Shown in pieces: positions 11,316 through 25,953 of a DNA stretch of 28,394 nucleotides. Below the pieces are notes generated by a model. That model did not search any database, had not been told where the DNA came from, and saw nothing but the letters and a program-made list of their open reading frames with translations. The DNA is from Streptomyces sp. NBS 14/10. Lineage in GTDB: Bacteria; Actinomycetota; Actinomycetes; Streptomycetales; Streptomycetaceae. Made by a program: the position numbers and the translations under genes. The stretch covers positions 1 through 28,394 of the forward strand of contig NZ_NCSM01000026.1 in assembly GCF_002224125.1 (NCBI RefSeq), written 5' to 3'. Each line of letters begins with the position of its first letter. Position 1 is the stretch's first letter.

Positions 11316-11484
11316 TTCACGTAACGTTGGCCGACCGGCGGGCCCAGGGCCCTTGTCGGTCCATATCTACGCGCGTATTTTTGGCCCGGATTCCAAGTCG
11401 TCGCATTTCCCGCGCATTTCCTCCGCTTCTTCCCCGATTCTTCCCCGCGTCCCGCCATTCCCTCGTGCGAGAAAGAGCTTCATC

Positions 11485-13911
11485 GTGCCCGAACACATAC
11501 CCGCGGCGCTGCGTGGCCGTGGTGTCAAGGTTGCCGTCCTCGTAGCGCTTCCCGTCGGTCTCGTCGGATCGCTCATCGCCCTCCCCCTCACCGCCCAGGC
11601 CGCGCCGTCCGCGGACGCCGTCATCTCCGAGGTCTACGGAGGCGGCGGCAACTCGGGCGCGTCCCTCACCCATGACTTCATCGAGCTGGGCAACTCCGGC
11701 ACCGGGTCGTTCGACCTGAGCGGCTGGTCCGTCCAGTACCTGGGCGGTTCGCCCAGTTCCTCCTCCAAGTGGCAGGTGACCCCGCTCACCGGCAACATCC
11801 CCGCGGGCGGCACCTACCTGGTCCAGGAGGCCAAGGGCTCCGGCGGCGACACCGCCCCGCCGACCCCCGACGCCACCGGCACCATCGCCATGTCGGCGAC
11901 CAGCGGCACCGTGGCACTGGTCCACTCGACCACCGCGCTCACCTGCCTGACCGCCGAGGACTGCGCGGCGGACGGCACCGTCAAGGACCTGGCCGGCTTC
12001 GGCACCGCCGCGGTCCGCGAGTCCGCTCCCGCCACCGGCGCGGGCAACACCACCTCCGTCTCGCGCGACGCCGGGTTCCATGACACCGACGACAACGCGG
12101 CCGACTTCACCGGCTCCGCCCCGAGCCCCCGCAACACCACGGGCACCGGCGGCACCCCGACGCCCGAGCCCACCCCGGAGCCCACCGACACCAACCCCGG
12201 GCCGCTGCGCGTCCACGACATCCAGGGCACCACCCGGATCTCCCCGCAGAGCGGCAAGTCCGTCACCAATGTGCCCGGTGTGGTGACCGGCGTGCGCTCC
12301 ACCGGCTCCAAGGGCTACTGGATCCAGGACCCCGGGGCCGACGGGAACGCGGCCACCAGCGAGGGCGTCTTCGTCTTCTCCGGCTCCACCACCCCGCAGG
12401 TCAAGGTCGGCGACTCGGTGCTGGTCTCGGGCAAGGTGAGCGAGTACTACCCCGGCGGCAAGAGCAGCGGCACGCAGTCCGTCACCGAACTGACCGCACC
12501 CACGGCCGTGGTGCTCTCCTCCGGCAACGAGCTGCCGGAGGCGGAGGCCGTCGACCCGGCCACGCTGCCCGACGCGTACGCGCCGCAGGCCCAGGGCGGC
12601 GGCATCGAGTCCCTGGAGCTGAAGCCCGACGCCTACGCGCTGGACTGGCTCGAGGCGCACGAGGGCATGCGGGTGCGGATCGGCGACTCCCGCGTGGTGG
12701 GCGCCACCAACGGCTACGGCGAGACGTGGATCACCACCAAGCCGCGGCAGAACCCGACCCCGCGCGGCGGCACCGTCCTCACCGGCTACGACAACCCCAA
12801 CTCCGGGCGCCTGCTGATCGCCTCGCTCACCGGCGACCAGCTCAAGGCCGATGTCGGCGACACCCTCACCGGCACCACCGAGGGCCCCGTGGACTACGCC
12901 AACTACGGCGGCTACAACATCCAGGCGACGGCCCTCGGGAAGGTCACCTCAGGCGGGCTCACCCCGGAAGTGGCGAAGAAGGGCAAGGCCAACGAGGTCT
13001 CCGTCGCCACGTACAACGTCGAGAACCTCGACCCGACGGACCCGCGGAGCAAGTTCGACCGGCTCGCCGAGGGCGTCGTCAAGAACCTGGCCACCCCGGA
13101 CATCGTGAGCCTGGAGGAGATCCAGGACAACAACGGTGCCAAGGACGACGGCACGGTCGCGGCCGACAAGACCATCGCCCAGTTCATCGACGCCATCAAG
13201 GCGGCCGGCGGCCCCACCTACGACTGGCGCTCCGTCGACCCGGTCAACGACGCGGACGGCGGCGAGCCCGGTGGCAACATCCGCAACGTCTTCCTCTTCA
13301 ACCCGCGGCGTGTGAGCTTCGTGGACCGTCCGGGCGGCGACGCCACCACGGCCGTCGAGGCGGTCGGCGACGGCAGCAAGGGCGTCAGGCTGTCGGTCTC
13401 GCCGGGCCGGATCAACCCCACCTCCGACGCCTGGAAGAGCAGCCGCAAGCCACTCGTCGGCGAGTTCACCTTCCGCGGCGAGAAGCTCTTCGTGGTCGGC
13501 AACCACTTCAACTCCAAGGGCGGGGACCAGCCGGTGCACGGCGCCTTCCAGCCCCCGACGCTCGGTTCCGAGACCCAGCGCACGGCCCAGGCCAAGGAGG
13601 TCAACACCTTCGTCTCCGGTCTGCTCGCCAAGGACGCGAGGGCCCGGGTCGTGGTCCTCGGTGACATGAACGACTTCCAGTTCTCCAAGCCGCTGGCCAC
13701 GCTGACCGAGGGCGGCGTCCTCACGGACCTGATCAACACCCTTCCGGCCGGCGAGCGGTACAGCTACGTGTACGACGGCAACGCGCAGACGCTGGACCAC
13801 ATCCTGGTCTCGCCCGCCATCAAGAAGCCCGAGTACGACGTCGTCCACATCAACGCCGAGTTCTCCGACCAGAGCAGCGACCACGACCCGCAGGTCGTCC
13901 GCTTCAAGTAG
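11485..13911 (+). CDS. Secreted LTD- and EEP-domain endonuclease (ExeM/NucH-like)
   Basis: 808-aa predicted extracellular DNase. The signal peptide is RGRGVKVAVLVALPVGLVGS... ending at AQA|AP (cleavage after residue 39). It is followed by a lamin-tail domain (AVISEVYGGGGNSG ... DFIELGNSG ... LSGWSVQYLGG), a Pro/Thr/Glu linker, an OB-like middle domain (VTGVRSTGSKGYWIQDPG ... VKVGDSVLVSGKVSEYY) and a C-terminal endonuclease/exonuclease/phosphatase domain from ~505. Catalytic motifs are ATYNVENL, SLEEIQDNNG (metal Glu), VGNHFNSKGG (His), LGDMNDFQ (Asp727, Asn729) and SSDHDPQV (Asp799, His800). The GTG at 11485 follows AGAAAGAG and begins at the signal peptide; an earlier in-frame start at 11353 would spoil it. 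The likely role is to degrade external DNA for phosphate or nucleosides. Regulation is unknown. Confidence 0.92.
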   Translation: MPEHIPAALRGRGVKVAVLVALPVGLVGSLIALPLTAQAAPSADAVISEVYGGGGNSGASLTHDFIELGNSGTGSFDLSGWSVQYLGGSPSSSSKWQVTPLTGNIPAGGTYLVQEAKGSGGDTAPPTPDATGTIAMSATSGTVALVHSTTALTCLTAEDCAADGTVKDLAGFGTAAVRESAPATGAGNTTSVSRDAGFHDTDDNAADFTGSAPSPRNTTGTGGTPTPEPTPEPTDTNPGPLRVHDIQGTTRISPQSGKSVTNVPGVVTGVRSTGSKGYWIQDPGADGNAATSEGVFVFSGSTTPQVKVGDSVLVSGKVSEYYPGGKSSGTQSVTELTAPTAVVLSSGNELPEAEAVDPATLPDAYAPQAQGGGIESLELKPDAYALDWLEAHEGMRVRIGDSRVVGATNGYGETWITTKPRQNPTPRGGTVLTGYDNPNSGRLLIASLTGDQLKADVGDTLTGTTEGPVDYANYGGYNIQATALGKVTSGGLTPEVAKKGKANEVSVATYNVENLDPTDPRSKFDRLAEGVVKNLATPDIVSLEEIQDNNGAKDDGTVAADKTIAQFIDAIKAAGGPTYDWRSVDPVNDADGGEPGGNIRNVFLFNPRRVSFVDRPGGDATTAVEAVGDGSKGVRLSVSPGRINPTSDAWKSSRKPLVGEFTFRGEKLFVVGNHFNSKGGDQPVHGAFQPPTLGSETQRTAQAKEVNTFVSGLLAKDARARVVVLGDMNDFQFSKPLATLTEGGVLTDLINTLPAGERYSYVYDGNAQTLDHILVSPAIKKPEYDVVHINAEFSDQSSDHDPQVVRFK

Positions 13912-13983: not shown

Positions 13984-15891
13984 CTACCGCGTGTCGCAGC
14001 GGCGCCCGTTGAGCGCGAGGTCGGTGGGCGCGGCGTTTCCGGCGTCCCAGGAGCCGAGGAAGCCCACCTCAAGGGCCTCCCCGCCGCGGGCGGTCTCGTT
14101 GTAGTCGGCCGGGGTGACGGTCACCTTGCGCCCGTGCTGGACGAATTCGCCGTTCCACATCTGGGTGATCTGCTGTCCGTTCTCGAACTCCCAGCTCAGC
14201 CGCCATTCGTGGACCGTCTTACGGGGTGTGAGGGTGACCTTCGCCTGGAAGCCGTCGGGCCACTGGTTGTCCAGGCTGTAGCGGGCCGTGCAGGTGACCC
14301 CGACGGGCTCGGCGTGCTTGGGGGGACGCGTCTTGGACGGCTTGTCCGGGGACGAGCCACCGCTCGGCGACGGCGTCTTGGCCGGGGACTTCGTCGGGTC
14401 GGGCTGGTGGCCGACGGCGGTCGTGTCGGACGCGGGCGGGAGGGGCGACTGGGTGGTGGGGGCGCCCTTGGACGGGAGGGTGGGGCCGACCGTCGGAATG
14501 GTGTCCGGTCCCATGCCGCCGTCGGGCGGGAGCCCGTCGTCCCGGTTCCCGTCCGTGCTGGTGTAGGCGATGACGGCGATCACGGAGACCGCGGCGGCTG
14601 CCGCGAGGATCCCCGCCGCCCTCGTCCTGCCGCCCTTCCGGGGCCTGCGCCGCCGGCCCCCGCCGCCGCCCCGCCTCCGGCTCGGCACGCCGTGCCCGCG
14701 GATCACCCCGGTCGCGGCCGTCGCGCCGACCGCGGCGGCGGCGCCGAAGGCGCCGGCCGTGCTGGTGTCGGCCGTGCCTGCGGTGGTGAACGGGTCGGTG
14801 CTGCCGGTCGTGCCGAAGGGGTCGAACGTCTCGAACCCGTCGACCGAGTGCGCCGTGTTCTGTGCACCGGCGACCGTGCCGAACGGGTCGAACGCGTCGA
14901 AGGTGTCCTCCATACGCGGCGTGTCGGCCCCATGACCCGCATGCGCGTTACGGGCCTCATGGGCCGTACCGGACGTACGAGCCGCCGAGGCCTCCGCCGC
15001 AACGCCCGCCGCAGCCGCGCGCCCCGTACGGGACTTCCCGCGCCCGCCCCGTATCCCCTTGACGCGGTCCCACAGCGGCGGTCCCACGCTGCGCGCGAGC
15101 GTCTGCAGCCGCTTGCCGCCGGTGTGCTCGGCCGCGACCCTGCGCCGCCGCTCCAGGTAGGGCAGCCCGCCCCAGCCGAGGACGCCCCCGGCCAGGGCGC
15201 CGGGCAGCCCGCTGCCGTGCAGATACAGGCAGGCGGCCGCCTCCTTGCAGTGCACACAGCGGGCGAGGTGCTGCCACAGGTCCTCGGGCGCGGCGGCGTC
15301 CGGTGAGCGGGTCGCGGCGTCCAGCAGTCCGGCGTAGCTGCGGCACTCCTCGTCGTTGAGCGTGTCGACGTGGTTGCGCTGGCACAGCTCGCGGTACCGG
15401 GCACGGACCCGGGCGATCTCCTCGTCGGCGTAGGCGGAGTCCCAGCCCAGCCGACGGGCCACCGTGGTGAGGGACTGCGACTCGACTTCGACGGACCACA
15501 GCAGATCGGCGTCGACCTCCGGCAGGTCGCATAAGCCGCGCAGCGCGAGCGGCTGTTCTCGCCGTGGTGTGGCGTAGCGTCTGGCCCGGTCGGAGGTCAG
15601 CCAGATGCGCAGGGCCGGGTCGAGCCGGACGCCGGCCTGCCGGGCCTGCCAGTCGGCGGCCGTCTTCCGTACGGAGCTCAGGAGCAGTGGGAGCCAGGGC
15701 AGACGCGGCCCCCATGCCCGCGTCCGCGAGGTGCGGGTCTCCCGGATGCCGCGCCGGAACGCCTCGGTGGCCAGCCGCATTCCGTCCTGCGGACTGGTGG
15801 TGCACAGGTTCGCGTAGTCGAGTACCGCGTCCCAGTATTCGGAGAGCAGAGCAGTCTCGGATATGGCGTCAGGAGATGACTCGTGGGGCAT
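13984..15891 (-). CDS. Membrane protein: sigma-like N-terminus, His/Cys motif, TM, outside CBM2
   Basis: 635-aa protein with an unusual domain order. Residues 1-200 resemble a degenerate sigma factor: a helical region (LLSEYWDAVLDYANLC ... QDGMRLATEAFRRGI) and an HTH-like segment (SLTTVARRLGWDSAYADEEI). Around 206-222, HLARCVHCKEAAACLYL has the H-x3-C-x2-C layout of anti-sigma zinc fingers. A disordered region with two FDPFGT motifs and a basic RRRGGGGGRRRRPRKGG patch leads to one TM segment (~422-445), a Pro/Ser/Lys linker and a C-terminal CBM2-like domain (~530-635, with a flanking Cys pair VTCTARYS ... NGRRC and Trp in HEWRLSWEF, MWNGEF, GSWDAG). The positive-inside rule puts the sigma-like half in the cytoplasm. 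The ATG at 15891 has GAGGAAA 7 nt upstream, better than the GTG at 15906. Binding of cellulose or chitin and signalling to transcription are inference. Confidence 0.8.
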   Translation of the reverse strand: MPHESSPDAISETALLSEYWDAVLDYANLCTTSPQDGMRLATEAFRRGIRETRTSRTRAWGPRLPWLPLLLSSVRKTAADWQARQAGVRLDPALRIWLTSDRARRYATPRREQPLALRGLCDLPEVDADLLWSVEVESQSLTTVARRLGWDSAYADEEIARVRARYRELCQRNHVDTLNDEECRSYAGLLDAATRSPDAAAPEDLWQHLARCVHCKEAAACLYLHGSGLPGALAGGVLGWGGLPYLERRRRVAAEHTGGKRLQTLARSVGPPLWDRVKGIRGGRGKSRTGRAAAAGVAAEASAARTSGTAHEARNAHAGHGADTPRMEDTFDAFDPFGTVAGAQNTAHSVDGFETFDPFGTTGSTDPFTTAGTADTSTAGAFGAAAAVGATAATGVIRGHGVPSRRRGGGGGRRRRPRKGGRTRAAGILAAAAAVSVIAVIAYTSTDGNRDDGLPPDGGMGPDTIPTVGPTLPSKGAPTTQSPLPPASDTTAVGHQPDPTKSPAKTPSPSGGSSPDKPSKTRPPKHAEPVGVTCTARYSLDNQWPDGFQAKVTLTPRKTVHEWRLSWEFENGQQITQMWNGEFVQHGRKVTVTPADYNETARGGEALEVGFLGSWDAGNAAPTDLALNGRRCDTR

Positions 15892-15941
15892 GGAGGGTTT
15901 CCTCACTGACGAAACAAAAGGCGCCCCCGCCGGGCAACACT

Positions 15942-21255: not shown

Positions 21256-24200
21256 GTGGGTATCGGGGATTTCATCCCGGATGGGGTGGAGGACTGGGTC
21301 GAGGACCGGGTCGAGGACGTCGGTGGGGCCATCGACGTCGCCGGGGACTGGACGGGCGACCGGCTGGATGACGTCGGCTGGGAGAGCGGTGCGGACTGGG
21401 TCCGGGACAAGTCGGACTCGACGGCGAACGCGCTGGGCGCGGATGTCGACGAGATGCAGCTGGGCGAGAGCGAGGATCCGAAGAAGCTGATCCACGGCAG
21501 TCCGTCGAAACTCCGCTCAACGGCCGGCCATCTCACGGACTTCAAGACCGCGTTCAACAATGTGGGCAAGGGGTTGCGGGGGCTCGGTTCGCGGTCGTTG
21601 AAGGGGAAGGCGGCGGAAGCCTTCCGGGAGAGCGTGTCGGTCGAGCCGAAGAAGTGGTTCACGGCGGCGGATGCGTGTGAGAAGGCGTCGGGGGCGCTGG
21701 AGCGGTTCGCGGGGACGGTGGAGTGGGCGCAGGGTCAGGCGGAGGAGGCGATCCGGCGCTACAAGAAGGGCAAGAAGGCCTCGGAGGACGCCCGCTCCGC
21801 GCATAACGACAAGGTGTCCGCGTACAACAAGGCGGCGGACGCCTACAACGCGCTCCCCGCCGACAAGCGGGATCCGTCCTCGCTGCCGGACAAGCCGGGT
21901 GCGTTCCACGATCCGGGGGCCGCTGACATCAAGGCCGCGCAGGATGTGCTGCAGGAGGCGCGGCGGCAGCGGAACGAGGCACATGGAGTGGCGAAGACGG
22001 CGGTCGAGGCGGCGCGCGATGCCGCACCGAAGAAGCCGTCGTACGCCCGGCAGGTGGGGGACGGGCTGGCGGGGCTGTCCCTGGACACCAGCCACTTCCT
22101 GGGCGGAGTGGTCAAGGGCACAGCGGGTCTGCTGAACTTCGTCCGGTCGGTGAACCCGATGGACCTGTACAACATCACACACCCCGCCGAGTACGTGACC
22201 AACCTCAACAACACCGCCGCTGGTCTGCTGCGGATGGCGAATGACCCGCGCACCGCGCTCAAGGGAATGTGGGACACCTTCCAGAAGGATCCGTCGGAGG
22301 GTGTGGGGCGTCTGGTGCCGGAGTTGATCGGGACCAAGGGTCTTGGAGGGGCGAAGGCGGCGATCACGGCTGCTGAGCGGCTGCCGGGGACCTTGGTCCG
22401 GGCCGAGCGGTCCGGGTTGCAGACGCTTGCCAAGGACGGGGCGGCGCCGCACGCCACGCCGGATGGGGCGAAGACCGCGGGTCATACGGATCCGGTGGAT
22501 CTGGCGACGGGGCGGATGTTTCTGTCGCAGCGGGATGTGGTGCTGCCGGGGGCGTTGGCGCTGGTGTTTGTGCGGCGGGTGGAGTCGGGGTATCGGGCGG
22601 GGCGGTGGTTCGGGCCGATGTGGTCGAGCACGGCCGATCAGCGGCTGGAGATCGGTGCGCGGGGTGTGGTGTTCGTCGCCGAGGACGGGCTGCTGCTGTC
22701 GTACCCGCACCCGGCGCCCGGCGTGCCGACGCTGCCGGAGCTGGGCCCCAGATGGCCACTGGAGCGCACGGTGGAGGGCGACTACACGCTCACCGATCCG
22801 GACACCGGCCGCACCTGGTACTTCACCGGCCCGGAGGGCGGGGGTGACGGCGAGGCCCTGCTGGCGGAGCTCGGCGACCGCAACGGCCACCGTCTGACCT
22901 TCGAGTACGACGTGCATGGCGCGCCGACCGGGATCGTCCACAGCGGCGGCTACCACCTCAAACTCACCACCGCCGACGGCCGCATCACCGCTCTCCACCT
23001 GGCAGGCGCGGCACCGGACGGCGCCGACCAGGAGCTCATCCGTTACGCGTACACGGACGGCAATCTGACCGAGGTGGTCAACTCCTCGGGGCTGCCGCTG
23101 CGGTTCGAGTACGACGCCGAGCGCCGGATCAGCGCGTGGATCGACACCAACGACCGCCGCTACGACTACGTCTACGACAACCGCGACCGGGTGATCGGCG
23201 AGGGCGGCACCGAAGGACATGTCTCGGTGCGTATCGACTACGGTCCGGCCGACGAGCGGACCGGTCACCGGATCACCACCGTCACCACGCCCGAGGGCCA
23301 TGCCACCCGCTATCTGATCAACGACCGCTGCCAGGTCATCGCCGTGACCAACCCGCTCGGCCACACCACCCGTACCCAACGCGACCGTTACGGCCGGATC
23401 CTGTCCCGCACCGATGCCCTGGGCCGGACCACCACCTACACTTACGACGCGGCCGGCCGGCTGACCTCCCTGACCACCCCCGACGGACATCAGCGGACCG
23501 CCGCCTACAACGACCTGGGCCTGCCGGTGGAGGTCACCCACGCGGACGGGGCCACCTGGCGCTACGCGTACGACGAGCGGGGCAACCGCACCGCCACCAC
23601 TGACCCGTTGGGCCACACCACCCACTACGCCTACGACGACCACGGCCACCTGACCTCGACCACCAACCCGCTCGGCGACACCACCCACATACGCTGCGAC
23701 GGGGCCGGGCTCCCCGTCGAGATCACCGATCCGCTGGGCGCGACCACCACCTACCACCGCGACGCCTTCGGCCGCCCCACCGCCGTCACCGACCCGCTCG
23801 GCGCCACCACCCGCATGGAGTGGACGGTGGAGGGCCGTCCCGCGCGGCGCACCGCCCCGGACGGCGCCGAGCAGACCTGGACCTACGACGGCGAGGGCAA
23901 CGTCACCGCTCACGCGGGCGCGGGCGGCGGTGTGACCCGTTATGAGTACACCCACTTCGATCTGCTGGCCGCCCGGACCGACCCGGACGGGGCCCGCTAC
24001 GAGTTCACGCACGACACTCAGCTGCGCCTCACCGAGGTGACCAATCCCCAGGGCCTGACCTGGACGTACACCCACGATGCGGCCGGCCGCCCGCTCAGCG
24101 AGACGGACTTCGACGGCCGCACCCTCGCCTACGACTACGATCCGGCGGGCCAACTGATCTCCCGCACCGACCCGCTGGGCCAGACCATCCGCCTCGCATA

Positions 24201-25953
24201 CGACGGCTGCGGCCGGATGGTCCGCAAGGACGCCGACGGCCAGGTCACCACCTGTACCTACGATCAGGCCGGGCGGCTGATGGAGGCCGTCGGCCCGGAC
24301 GCGGCGCTGACATACCGGCGGGATCGTATGGGCCGGGCCATATCGGAAGTCGTCGGCGACCGGGTCCTCACGCGCACCTACGACGCCCTGGGCCGCCCCG
24401 TGCGCCGCACCACCCCCTCCGGCGCCAAGTCCACCTTCGCGTACGACGCGGCGGGCCGCCGCACCACGCTGACCACCTGCGGCCACGCCCTCGACTTCAC
24501 GTATGACGCGATAGGCCGGGAAACCGCCCACCGACTTGGGCCTAACGCCTCACTCGCGCAGATCTGGGACCCGGCCGGACGACTGACAGAGCAGACCCTG
24601 AGCGACCCAGAGGGCGGAACCCTCCAGCATCGGGCGTACACCTACCGCCCCGACGGCCACCTGACCGCCATCGACGACCAACTGCGCGGCCCCCGCACCT
24701 TCGACCTGGACGCGGCGGGCCGGGTCACCACCGTCCGGGCCGAGGGCTGGACGGAGACCTACGCCTACGACGACGCGGGCAACCAGACCCACGCCACCTG
24801 GCCACACGAACACCCCACCCCGGAGGCCACCGGCCCGCGCACCTACACCGGCACCCGCATCACCCACGCCGGACGCCTCCGCTACGAACACGACACCGCC
24901 GGCCGCCTCACCCTCCGCCAGAAAACCCGCCTATCCGCCAAGCCCGACACCTGGCGCTACACCTGGGACGCAGAGGACCGCCTGACCACCGTCACCACCC
25001 CCGACGGCACCCTCTGGCGCTACCTCTACGACCCCCTCGGCCGCCGCACCACCAAACAACACCTCGCACGCGACGGCAAAACGGTCCTCCAACAGACCGA
25101 CTTCACCTGGGACGGCACCACCCTCGTAGAACAGACCACCACGACACCGGACCTGCCTCACCCGGTGACGCTGACTTGGGAACACGACGGCAACCGCCCC
25201 CTGACCCAGACCGAACGCGTCACCGAGGCCACCACCCAGCGCGAGATCGACCGCCGCTTCTTCGCCATCGTCACCGACCTCGTCGGCGCCCCCACCGAAC
25301 TCATCGACGAGACGGGTGACATCGCCTGGCGCGCCCGTCCCTCGCTCTGGGGCACCACCACGCCCGAGGACCCCACCGGCACACCCCACACCCCCCTGCG
25401 CTTCCCCGGCCAGTACCACGACCCCGAAAGCGGCCTCCACTACAACCACCACCGCTACTACGACCCCACCACCGCCCGCTACCTCACCCCCGACCCCCTC
25501 GGCCTGGCCCCCGCCCCCAACCCGGTCGCCTACGTCCCCAACCCCCACCGCTGGGCCGACCCGCTGGGGCTCACGCCCTGCCACTTGCTGGATTACCTCC
25601 CCGAGGAGCGCCCGGACGGAGAGCTGGTGTTCGCCGGTCATGGCGGCCTTGAACCCGACCTGCCGACGTTCGAGGTGCCCGAGGGCACGAGCGTCGCCGT
25701 GTACTCCGATGTCGGCGAGCCCCTGACGCTCTGGGAGGCGAATCACGTCATTGCCGGGCACCCGAGTGTGCCGATTGCGCATGTGTACCAGCCGGGGGAC
25801 ATAATGCCGGACTTCACCCTGGCCCCGAAGGACGATATGGCCCTCCGTGGCAATTACATCGGCACGGAGAAGAACCCGGTCCCGTTGTCGTTCATGCTCG
25901 ATCCGCACATGGGCCGAGTGCACTGGGCCGCGTGCAGCACGATCATCGAATGA
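21256..25953 (+). CDS. RHS-repeat polymorphic-toxin-like protein with T7SS-type N-terminus
   Basis: 1565-aa secreted toxin or adhesin candidate. Residues 1-~130 (GIGDFIPDGVEDWVEDRVED ...) resemble the T7SS-secreted/LXG-like N-terminus of actinobacterial RHS proteins. A helical, probably coiled-coil region runs 140-270. A DUF6531-like segment starts ~411 (DPVDLATGRMF). Over 20 YD/RHS repeats follow (YDAAGRLT-type) up to the RHS core (RFPGQYHDPESGLHYNHHRYY, YLTPDPLGLAP, ending WADPLGL ~1433-1439). The variable tip (1442-1565) has VFAGHGGL (His1462) and VHWAACS (Cys1560) and resembles the domain I remember as 'putative adhesin Stv'. The start is GTG with GGGGG 9 nt upstream. The shell would encapsulate the tip. 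Third-position codon usage shifts along the gene. GNAT follows at 29 bp. Tip function is unproven. Confidence 0.9.
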   Translation: MGIGDFIPDGVEDWVEDRVEDVGGAIDVAGDWTGDRLDDVGWESGADWVRDKSDSTANALGADVDEMQLGESEDPKKLIHGSPSKLRSTAGHLTDFKTAFNNVGKGLRGLGSRSLKGKAAEAFRESVSVEPKKWFTAADACEKASGALERFAGTVEWAQGQAEEAIRRYKKGKKASEDARSAHNDKVSAYNKAADAYNALPADKRDPSSLPDKPGAFHDPGAADIKAAQDVLQEARRQRNEAHGVAKTAVEAARDAAPKKPSYARQVGDGLAGLSLDTSHFLGGVVKGTAGLLNFVRSVNPMDLYNITHPAEYVTNLNNTAAGLLRMANDPRTALKGMWDTFQKDPSEGVGRLVPELIGTKGLGGAKAAITAAERLPGTLVRAERSGLQTLAKDGAAPHATPDGAKTAGHTDPVDLATGRMFLSQRDVVLPGALALVFVRRVESGYRAGRWFGPMWSSTADQRLEIGARGVVFVAEDGLLLSYPHPAPGVPTLPELGPRWPLERTVEGDYTLTDPDTGRTWYFTGPEGGGDGEALLAELGDRNGHRLTFEYDVHGAPTGIVHSGGYHLKLTTADGRITALHLAGAAPDGADQELIRYAYTDGNLTEVVNSSGLPLRFEYDAERRISAWIDTNDRRYDYVYDNRDRVIGEGGTEGHVSVRIDYGPADERTGHRITTVTTPEGHATRYLINDRCQVIAVTNPLGHTTRTQRDRYGRILSRTDALGRTTTYTYDAAGRLTSLTTPDGHQRTAAYNDLGLPVEVTHADGATWRYAYDERGNRTATTDPLGHTTHYAYDDHGHLTSTTNPLGDTTHIRCDGAGLPVEITDPLGATTTYHRDAFGRPTAVTDPLGATTRMEWTVEGRPARRTAPDGAEQTWTYDGEGNVTAHAGAGGGVTRYEYTHFDLLAARTDPDGARYEFTHDTQLRLTEVTNPQGLTWTYTHDAAGRPLSETDFDGRTLAYDYDPAGQLISRTDPLGQTIRLAYDGCGRMVRKDADGQVTTCTYDQAGRLMEAVGPDAALTYRRDRMGRAISEVVGDRVLTRTYDALGRPVRRTTPSGAKSTFAYDAAGRRTTLTTCGHALDFTYDAIGRETAHRLGPNASLAQIWDPAGRLTEQTLSDPEGGTLQHRAYTYRPDGHLTAIDDQLRGPRTFDLDAAGRVTTVRAEGWTETYAYDDAGNQTHATWPHEHPTPEATGPRTYTGTRITHAGRLRYEHDTAGRLTLRQKTRLSAKPDTWRYTWDAEDRLTTVTTPDGTLWRYLYDPLGRRTTKQHLARDGKTVLQQTDFTWDGTTLVEQTTTTPDLPHPVTLTWEHDGNRPLTQTERVTEATTQREIDRRFFAIVTDLVGAPTELIDETGDIAWRARPSLWGTTTPEDPTGTPHTPLRFPGQYHDPESGLHYNHHRYYDPTTARYLTPDPLGLAPAPNPVAYVPNPHRWADPLGLTPCHLLDYLPEERPDGELVFAGHGGLEPDLPTFEVPEGTSVAVYSDVGEPLTLWEANHVIAGHPSVPIAHVYQPGDIMPDFTLAPKDDMALRGNYIGTEKNPVPLSFMLDPHMGRVHWAACSTIIE

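Follow-up and report, generated by a model that had tools for sequence, protein, structure and literature searches.

Does a protein that joins a sigma-like fold, an anti-sigma-like zinc motif, a transmembrane (TM) segment and a carbohydrate-binding domain in a single chain act as a transcription switch, as a receptor of another kind, or as an anchor for its outer domain? The question is raised by a gene in a 28,394-nucleotide stretch of Streptomyces sp. NBS 14/10 (positions 1 to 28,394 of contig NZ_NCSM01000026.1, hereafter the window). An earlier note had read the product as a one-polypeptide sigma/anti-sigma/sensor switch comparable with the clostridial SigI/RsgI systems, or alternatively as a binding protein with a degenerate anchor.

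Gene and protein layout

The reading frame lies on the minus strand (13984..15891) and encodes 635 residues from an ATG at 15891, with GAGGAAA directly 5' of it, to a stop codon at 13984–13986. The mechanical ORF start is an in-frame GTG at 15906, and the family alignment supports the ATG at 15891 instead. All features described below are on the minus strand. Residues 1–257 form an all-helical module at the N terminus, in which the AlphaFold model places a sigma2-like fold (residues 5–88, 15628..15879) and a sigma4-like helix-turn-helix fold (residues 100–177, 15361..15594) with a recognition helix at about residues 152–167 and an acidic residue at position 158. These are followed by a ZAS/zf-HC2-type zinc motif (residues 183–221, 15229..15345) and a segment (residues 226–250, 15142..15216, VLGWGG..YLERRR) marked out by the alignment and by dN. 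A variable linker (residues 258–407, 14671..15120), longer than in most aligned relatives, leads to a basic patch, RRRGGGGGRRRRPRKGGRTR (residues 405–424, 14620..14679), directly N-terminal to a single TM segment (residues 425–443, 14563..14619), whose mean hydropathy of 2.29 is the highest in the protein. A second hydrophobic stretch (residues 379–397) has a value of 1.52 and is not taken as a TM segment. Since the basic patch precedes the TM segment, the N terminus is presumably cytoplasmic by the positive-inside rule. The predicted extracellular part consists of a linker rich in Pro (24%) and Ser/Thr (27%) (residues 460–533, 14293..14514) and a CBM2 domain identified by Pfam and alignment (residues 534–632, 13996..14292). 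Structural modelling, motif, hydropathy and Pfam thus bear out every part that the earlier note had listed: the sigma-like N terminus, the H-x3-C-x2-C motif, the basic patch, the one TM segment, the Pro-rich linker and CBM2.

A sigma fold beyond the reach of sequence models

Pfam and NCBIfam scans find no Sigma70 match in the window protein, and none of 18 other family members scanned has one above the cut-off. PDB phmmer and PDB profile searches of the window protein do not arrive at a sigma identity, and the protein is not among the 120 TIGR02937 matches in its own genome, for which 150 of 300 candidates were scored. Because these direct sequence routes failed, structure and profile–profile comparison were needed to establish the sigma identity. 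Residues 5–88 and 100–177 model as sigma2 and sigma4 (pLDDT 89, pTM 0.87) and align with ECF sigma2 and sigma4 domains in a fold search, and a profile–profile comparison with the same genome's ECF sigma factors runs co-linearly across residues 3–176 (probability 96.2, P 2.2e-9). The comparison of residues 1–200 with sigma folds that had been proposed as a check therefore returns a similarity by both methods. The fold matches also include PhyR domains (3t0y, 9cb6, 2lfw). As to membership of ECF group IV, the sigma2 and sigma4 folds are present and the curated sigma-70 family models are unmatched. The co-linear homology across both sigma domains is what would be expected if the protein were still a working ECF sigma factor of altered promoter preference, which proteolysis frees from the ZAS and the membrane to direct a polysaccharide regulon, as proposed for ECF52. 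This is the main rival to the reading preferred here, and it is possible, if somewhat unlikely; the lack of a Sigma70 match in the window protein and in the 18 other members weighs against it.

The same genome encodes a second one-piece protein (locus L016, 600-2387, minus strand, G000:C24) with a Sigma70_r2 match (E 4.9e-13), an H-x3-C-x2-C motif, hydrophobic segments, a Pro-rich linker and a C-terminal part without family assignment. About 8 kb from its gene lies L077 (G000:C24:30951-31598), which, like L075, has a DAEDL motif and the zinc motif and ends shortly after, with no TM segment found.

Family, distribution and phylogeny

The named homologues are nearly all from Streptomyces, with a few from Actinacidiphila and one labelled Stenotrophomonas. 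A profile of residues 1–260 matches at least 115 of 121 same-family genomes at E 1e-3, each of these genomes having between one and eight matches, and the lineage of the window protein is present in at least 17 of the 121 (E < 1e-76, the next match being 8.8e-52). In a sample of 150 genomes of the genus, the CBM2 branch including this lineage is found in at least 59 at E 1e-60, with one match each and no stop inside the matched stretch in any of the 59. In a class-wide sample, at least 49 of 197 genomes match at 1e-10, the best match outside the own family being 1.9e-17. These profile searches scored a portion of the first-look candidates (21 of 137 in the own genome, for instance), and absences are accordingly soft.

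The rows of the alignments were chosen manually: the window protein was joined by 37 of 82 homologues in A1, by 61 of 96 in A2 and by 45 of 110 in A4. The 70 rows of the wider family were likewise picked by hand among the matches listed. Domain scans of 20 wider members distinguish proteins of ECF52-type make-up (Sigma70_r2, zf-HC2 and NPCBM: L091, L099, L092), proteins with Sigma70_r2 and a ricin lectin (L066, L069 and, weakly, L065), and proteins with Sigma70_r2 and no sensor family found (L102, L097, L113). No sigma match is found in nine proteins with a ricin lectin (L105, L088, L109, L108, L110, L068, L098, L106, L111), in L063, which has CBM2, or in L064, which has CBM2 and a ricin lectin. 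In the 62-row tree, from which eight near-identical rows of the window clade were dropped, a 29-row clade with a support of 100/100 unites the window protein, its CBM2 relatives, a 19-row ricin branch and L064; L098, L106 and L111 fall outside it, among the rows termed intermediate. Since the intact, intermediate, CBM2 and ricin groups were drawn from the tree and the motifs, a tree without the trait columns serves as an independent check on them, and in this tree, from which L098 was also left out, the support is still 100/99. In its observed make-up the window protein has a CBM2 domain outside and one TM segment, with a ZAS-type zinc motif fused to a sigma2–sigma4 fold inside, and the part of the genus that has kept its gene carries it in single copy.

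Zinc motif and following segment

The zinc motif consists of H208-x3-C212-x2-C215 preceded by C183, with 24 residues between C183 and H208 and an extra cysteine at position 221. Among 20,000 shuffled versions of the window protein, H-x3-C-x2-C turns up in 0.29% and C-x20-30-H-x3-C-x2-C in 0.02%. The four residues C183, H208, C212 and C215 are invariant in all 62 family rows and in all 70 rows of the wider family, and zf-HC2 is matched at the equivalent place in L102 (E 2.3e-5), L099 and L092. If the fused sigma fold were a working sigma factor, an invariant zinc motif would imply that there is something to inhibit. In the segment that follows, V237, G239, W240, Y245 and R249 are invariant in the family alignment.

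The zinc region is poorly defined when modelled alone (pLDDT 62.6, from 46 rows, the larger model having 62), whereas together with the sigma fold it reaches block means of 81–97 over residues 181–250, which suggests that the ZAS-type region packs on the sigma fold. No feature varies less than the ZAS motif, and intact siblings are encoded in the same genomes as clade members (L087 with L056, L091 with L050). Both observations would suit a ZAS half that acts in trans, under carbohydrate control, as the anti-sigma factor of a different ECF, while the sigma fold fused to it serves as a competitive plug. However, the dependence of the zinc region on the sigma fold for its definition fits an internal clamp equally well, and this trans-acting arrangement is considered very improbable.

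The CBM2 sensor and its exchange

The CBM_2 Pfam match (E 1.1e-25, 90.4 bits against a cut-off of 24) covers residues 534–632. The Cex CBM2 (1exg, 6qfs) has Trp at each of the three positions aligned with W544, W579 and Y597, which we take to be the cellulose-binding positions of CBM2. The end cysteines C534 and C632 are conserved. The binding face of CBM2 looks intact from the alignment, with cellulose, chitin or xylan as candidate ligands. Six CBM2 matches are found in the own genome; the frames of the other five resemble, by eye, secreted enzymes or binding proteins, and the window protein is the only one among them with the helical inside module.

An intact-looking binding face would also be expected of a passive adhesin, in which CBM2 attaches the hyphae to cellulose or chitin, with the cytoplasmic part surviving as a relic that serves only for anchoring. 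However, the sensor has been exchanged within the family (a ricin lectin, CBM2 or the two together) and the cytoplasmic part retained, which speaks against such a relic, as do the invariant zinc ligands and the conservation of newly acquired residues described below; the adhesin reading is judged improbable. P0083 and P0084, near relatives of the window lineage, have a ricin lectin in place of CBM2 and keep the inside part. L064, with a ricin lectin and CBM2 both outside, may be a case of stacked sensors or a midway stage in their exchange.

Residue changes in the drifted clade

The Gln and acidic residues of region 2.2 have a role in sigma70. The sigma2 residues that contact the beta' coiled-coil are described as conserved, and the contact as electrostatic, in the available part of PMC6411747. 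The region-2.2 Asp (residue 39 of the window protein) is present in all 24 intact rows, in one of 17 CBM2-clade rows, with Glu in two more, and in none of 19 ricin-clade rows, counts that are partly by construction, given how the groups were drawn, and that, like all 36-row and 24-row counts here, exclude the ten intermediate rows (including L064). Residue 39 is not acidic in 14 of the 17 CBM2-clade rows and is Met, Leu or Ile in the ricin members, and on the tree without trait columns its loss needs at least two changes. The recognition helix has changed as well. Residues 152–162 carry a net positive charge in 23 of 24 intact rows, in no CBM2 row of 17 and in one ricin row of 19; this first half of the –35 recognition helix is thus negative or neutral in 35 of 36 clade rows. 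Over residues 152–167 the mean charge is +2.2 in the intact, –0.1 in the CBM2 and +0.6 in the ricin rows, with +1 in the window protein. Hence the recognition helix is less basic but not strongly acidic, and a provisional description of it as acidic was reworded, the charges relative to intact relatives showing reduced basicity only.

The –35 contacts were mapped from the available part of PMC6713349, in which R173 of sigmaE, at the position of residue 158, contacts –35 DNA. R161 of the window protein is at the position of sigmaE R176. When the 62-row family was compared with 20 typical ECFs, picked by hand together with L016 from the 120 TIGR02937 matches of the own genome, no family row had the region-2.2 Asp (Glu in five) or the Gln, one of 62 had a basic residue 156, and residue 158 was acidic in 62 of 62, a position never basic in intact relatives. 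Residues 152–162 had a negative charge in 48 of the 62 family rows and one between +1 and +3 in all 21 ECFs. Residue 42 is Gln in 16 of the 20 typical ECFs, but its loss is uninformative because Ala, Gly or Ser already stands there in all 24 intact relatives, including those of ECF52 type, and the loss was dropped as a sign of lost core binding. Likewise, the loss of basic residues 156 and 158 was toned down as a trait specific to the clade: residue 156 is basic in only 5 of 24 intact relatives, which are mostly atypical at these positions already.

Other positions have become fixed or common in the clade. Y245 and R249 are present in 36 of 36 clade rows, against Tyr in 7 of 24 intact rows, which mostly have Ala or Val at position 249. 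C170 is found in 15 of 17 CBM2 and 15 of 19 ricin rows, in 6 of the 10 intermediate rows and in none of the 24 intact rows, and R161 in 24 of 24 intact, 5 of 17 CBM2 and 6 of 19 ricin rows; each of the two needs at least six changes on the tree, so that neither is a single event. The sigma2 residue C30 is an older feature, shared by 22 of 24 intact rows. C30 (15802-15804) and C170 (15382-15384), the latter in 30 of 36 drifted rows, could possibly form a disulfide or metal link; for ECF57, the available part of PMC8999054 puts forward a Cys pair that joins sigma2 to sigma4.

For the working-sigma reading these changes cut both ways, R161 being kept in the window protein while Asp39 and the positive recognition helix of intact relatives are lost. 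A conserved lack of polymerase or promoter contacts had been named beforehand as a sign against the switch; it is partly seen, at Asp39 and in the charge of residues 152–162 (not positive in 17 of 17 CBM2-clade rows), but the window protein keeps R161, and position 42 and mostly position 156 are atypical in the intact relatives too.

Selection on the cytoplasmic module

dN/dS was estimated by the Nei–Gojobori method, which is crude on DNA this rich in GC, and the eight printed pairs are not independent, three coming from the trio L049/L050/L051. In the four close pairs (these three and L054/L056), dN/dS is 0.08–0.24 for sigma2, 0.04–0.17 for sigma4, 0–0.29 for the zinc region, 0 for residues 226–250 (dN = 0), 0.27–0.41 for CBM2 and 0.35–0.99 for the linkers. 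Sigma4 has a lower dN/dS than CBM2 in all eight printed pairs and sigma2 in seven, the exception being L049/L052 (sigma2 0.42, CBM2 0.40); L055/L057 has high values (sigma2 0.78, CBM2 1.03). The wide-pair sigma medians are 0.285 for the window clade, 0.351 for the ricin clade, 0.477 for the ECF52-type proteins and 0.195 for the intact ricin proteins; they give no sign that constraint in the clade is weaker than in all of its intact relatives. The pattern points to a sigma fold under selection and speaks against a decaying anchor. In particular, the stronger constraint on sigma4 and, with one exception, on sigma2 than on CBM2 is not what the adhesin reading predicts, and together with the newly conserved residues it makes the degenerate anchor, the alternative that the earlier note had allowed, the disfavoured one.

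Gene neighbourhood

In the window the gene lies between those for an LTD/nuclease protein and an asparagine synthase. The 19 window ORFs scanned give no sigma or zf-HC2 match. The LTD/nuclease gene (11353-13911, plus strand), convergent with the receptor gene, encodes 852 residues with a Lamin Tail Domain and an exo/endonuclease-phosphatase domain. Farther along, 21256-25953 (plus strand) encodes a 1565-residue protein of polymorphic-toxin-like build, in which RHS repeats are combined with a T7SS signal domain, DUF6531 and, at the C terminus, a Stv adhesin domain.

The asparagine synthase, LTD nuclease, beta-lactamase-fold and DJC28 genes of the window have no match at the relatives' loci (flanks of up to about 1.5 kb), and this absence of window neighbours beside the relatives would be in keeping with a stand-alone adhesin. 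Six of eight larger loci of relatives share parts of a neighbourhood that is absent from the window: an RsgA-like GTPase (four loci), Ada/AlkA (five), an FAD oxidase (five) and a family-less gene (four), one member of which has a weak radical SAM match. A ROK/HTH gene of the sugar-kinase-or-repressor type lies about 3 kb from the clade gene in five of the eight loci, though not beside the window gene, and could be functionally linked to the clade gene. Its representative at L118:1955-3382 (minus strand) was scanned as ROK-family plus HTH, has counterparts in L117, L119, L120 and L124, and is possibly sugar-related. Ten proteins scanned from four relatives' loci include a SpoIIE/HATPase_c_2 protein (L121), an HATPase_c protein (L122) and a GntR regulator (L119), and no sigma or zf-HC2 protein. 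Neither at the window nor at the relatives' loci do neighbouring genes point to a partner.

Proposed mechanism

These observations lead to a reading, to which we give about an even chance, in which the protein is a carbohydrate receptor derived from ECF52-like sigma factors, with a sigma fold under selection that is probably not an ordinary promoter-reading sigma factor and that delivers its output by protein contacts. Topology and the ECF52 model suggest that CBM2 would bind insoluble polysaccharide, cellulose or chitin, outside the cell, that binding would be relayed by a conformational change or by regulated intramembrane proteolysis, and that the ZAS/sigma-fold module would thereby be opened or freed. 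Because of the residue changes in the clade, this module is most likely not an ordinary promoter-reading ECF sigma factor, and once freed it may act through protein contacts in the sigma/anti-sigma/RNA polymerase network, using the sigma fold as a binding surface. A more specific form of the proposal is rather doubtful: the pseudo-sigma/ZAS unit might be a signalling or decoy module whose availability is altered by polysaccharide binding and which competes for, or releases, the partner of a real ECF such as an intact ECF52-type sibling, perhaps gated by C30–C170.

Comparison with known systems

The closest published class is ECF52, whose definition in PMC5826349 (sigma, zinc finger, TM, Pro-rich extension and carbohydrate-binding domain in one chain) describes the window protein as well. 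According to the available parts of PMC5826349 and PMC8999054, ECF52, represented by SCO4117 of Streptomyces coelicolor, is a one-piece sigma/anti-sigma/TM/carbohydrate-binding class for which release by proteolysis has been modelled. In the same part of PMC5826349 (2018), SCO4117 is called the first characterised ECF52 member, and a version of it cut back to lack zinc finger, TM and lectin showed activated expression of its own gene. ECF52-type proteins are considered to convert extracellular carbohydrate into transcription. The one-polypeptide switch of the earlier note is thus sound in its parts but not new as an idea, ECF52 having been published with the same release scheme (PMC5826349, PMC8999054, as far as available).

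The window protein and ECF52 proteins are actinobacterial and have in common sigma2–sigma4, a ZAS-type zinc finger, a TM region, a Pro-rich linker, a carbohydrate-binding domain and a homologous cytoplasmic part, and this common architecture and ancestry is a further point for the working-sigma reading. They differ in the sensor, which is CBM2 in the window protein but NPCBM in ECF52, and in the membrane region, with one TM segment as against two hydrophobic peaks in L091, L092 and L099. Unlike ECF52, the window protein has no Sigma70 Pfam match, belongs to a separate clade and has lost the region-2.2 Asp, and its clade has invariant Y245 and R249 and a common C170. It does not group with the NPCBM-bearing ECF52-type rows, for which L091, L099 and L092, picked by domain make-up, stand in, SCO4117 being outside the tree. 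A search of the own genome for the NPCBM of SCO4117 returned no ECF52; it gave one frame that is by eye alpha-galactosidase-like (L007/L009) and one short frame (L008/L015). Members of the ricin-lectin clade (L105, L088, L109, L108, L110, L068) resemble the window protein in their drifted sigma part, zinc motif, TM and Pro-rich linker and differ in having a ricin B lectin as sensor; they form the other main branch of the 29-row clade.

In SigI/RsgI of cellulolytic clostridia, a polysaccharide-binding module outside is coupled to sigma control inside. That system, however, is split over two proteins, and SigI is not classed as an ECF nor RsgI as a ZAS protein. At the window locus no separate anti-sigma gene is found among the ORFs scanned. 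The parallel drawn in the earlier note holds as an analogy only. PhyR offers a precedent for a sigma fold used without promoter recognition, and its domains match the sigma part of the window protein in the fold search; but PhyR is a soluble response regulator that is not known to have a ZAS, TM or lectin part. In the literature searched, no counterpart was found for one-piece sigma mimicry under the control of an extracellular carbohydrate, and no description of the drifted clade, which the main ECF classification papers may contain.

The one-piece architecture is therefore already known, and what appears to be new, judging from the literature searched, is the separate drifted clade. As a sister clade it would be a natural experiment in which parts of a sigma/anti-sigma fusion persist once promoter recognition seems to have been abandoned, and in the new use to which the fold is put, and it makes the question of whether a sigma fold without sigma function can be a signalling device directly testable in laboratory streptomycetes.
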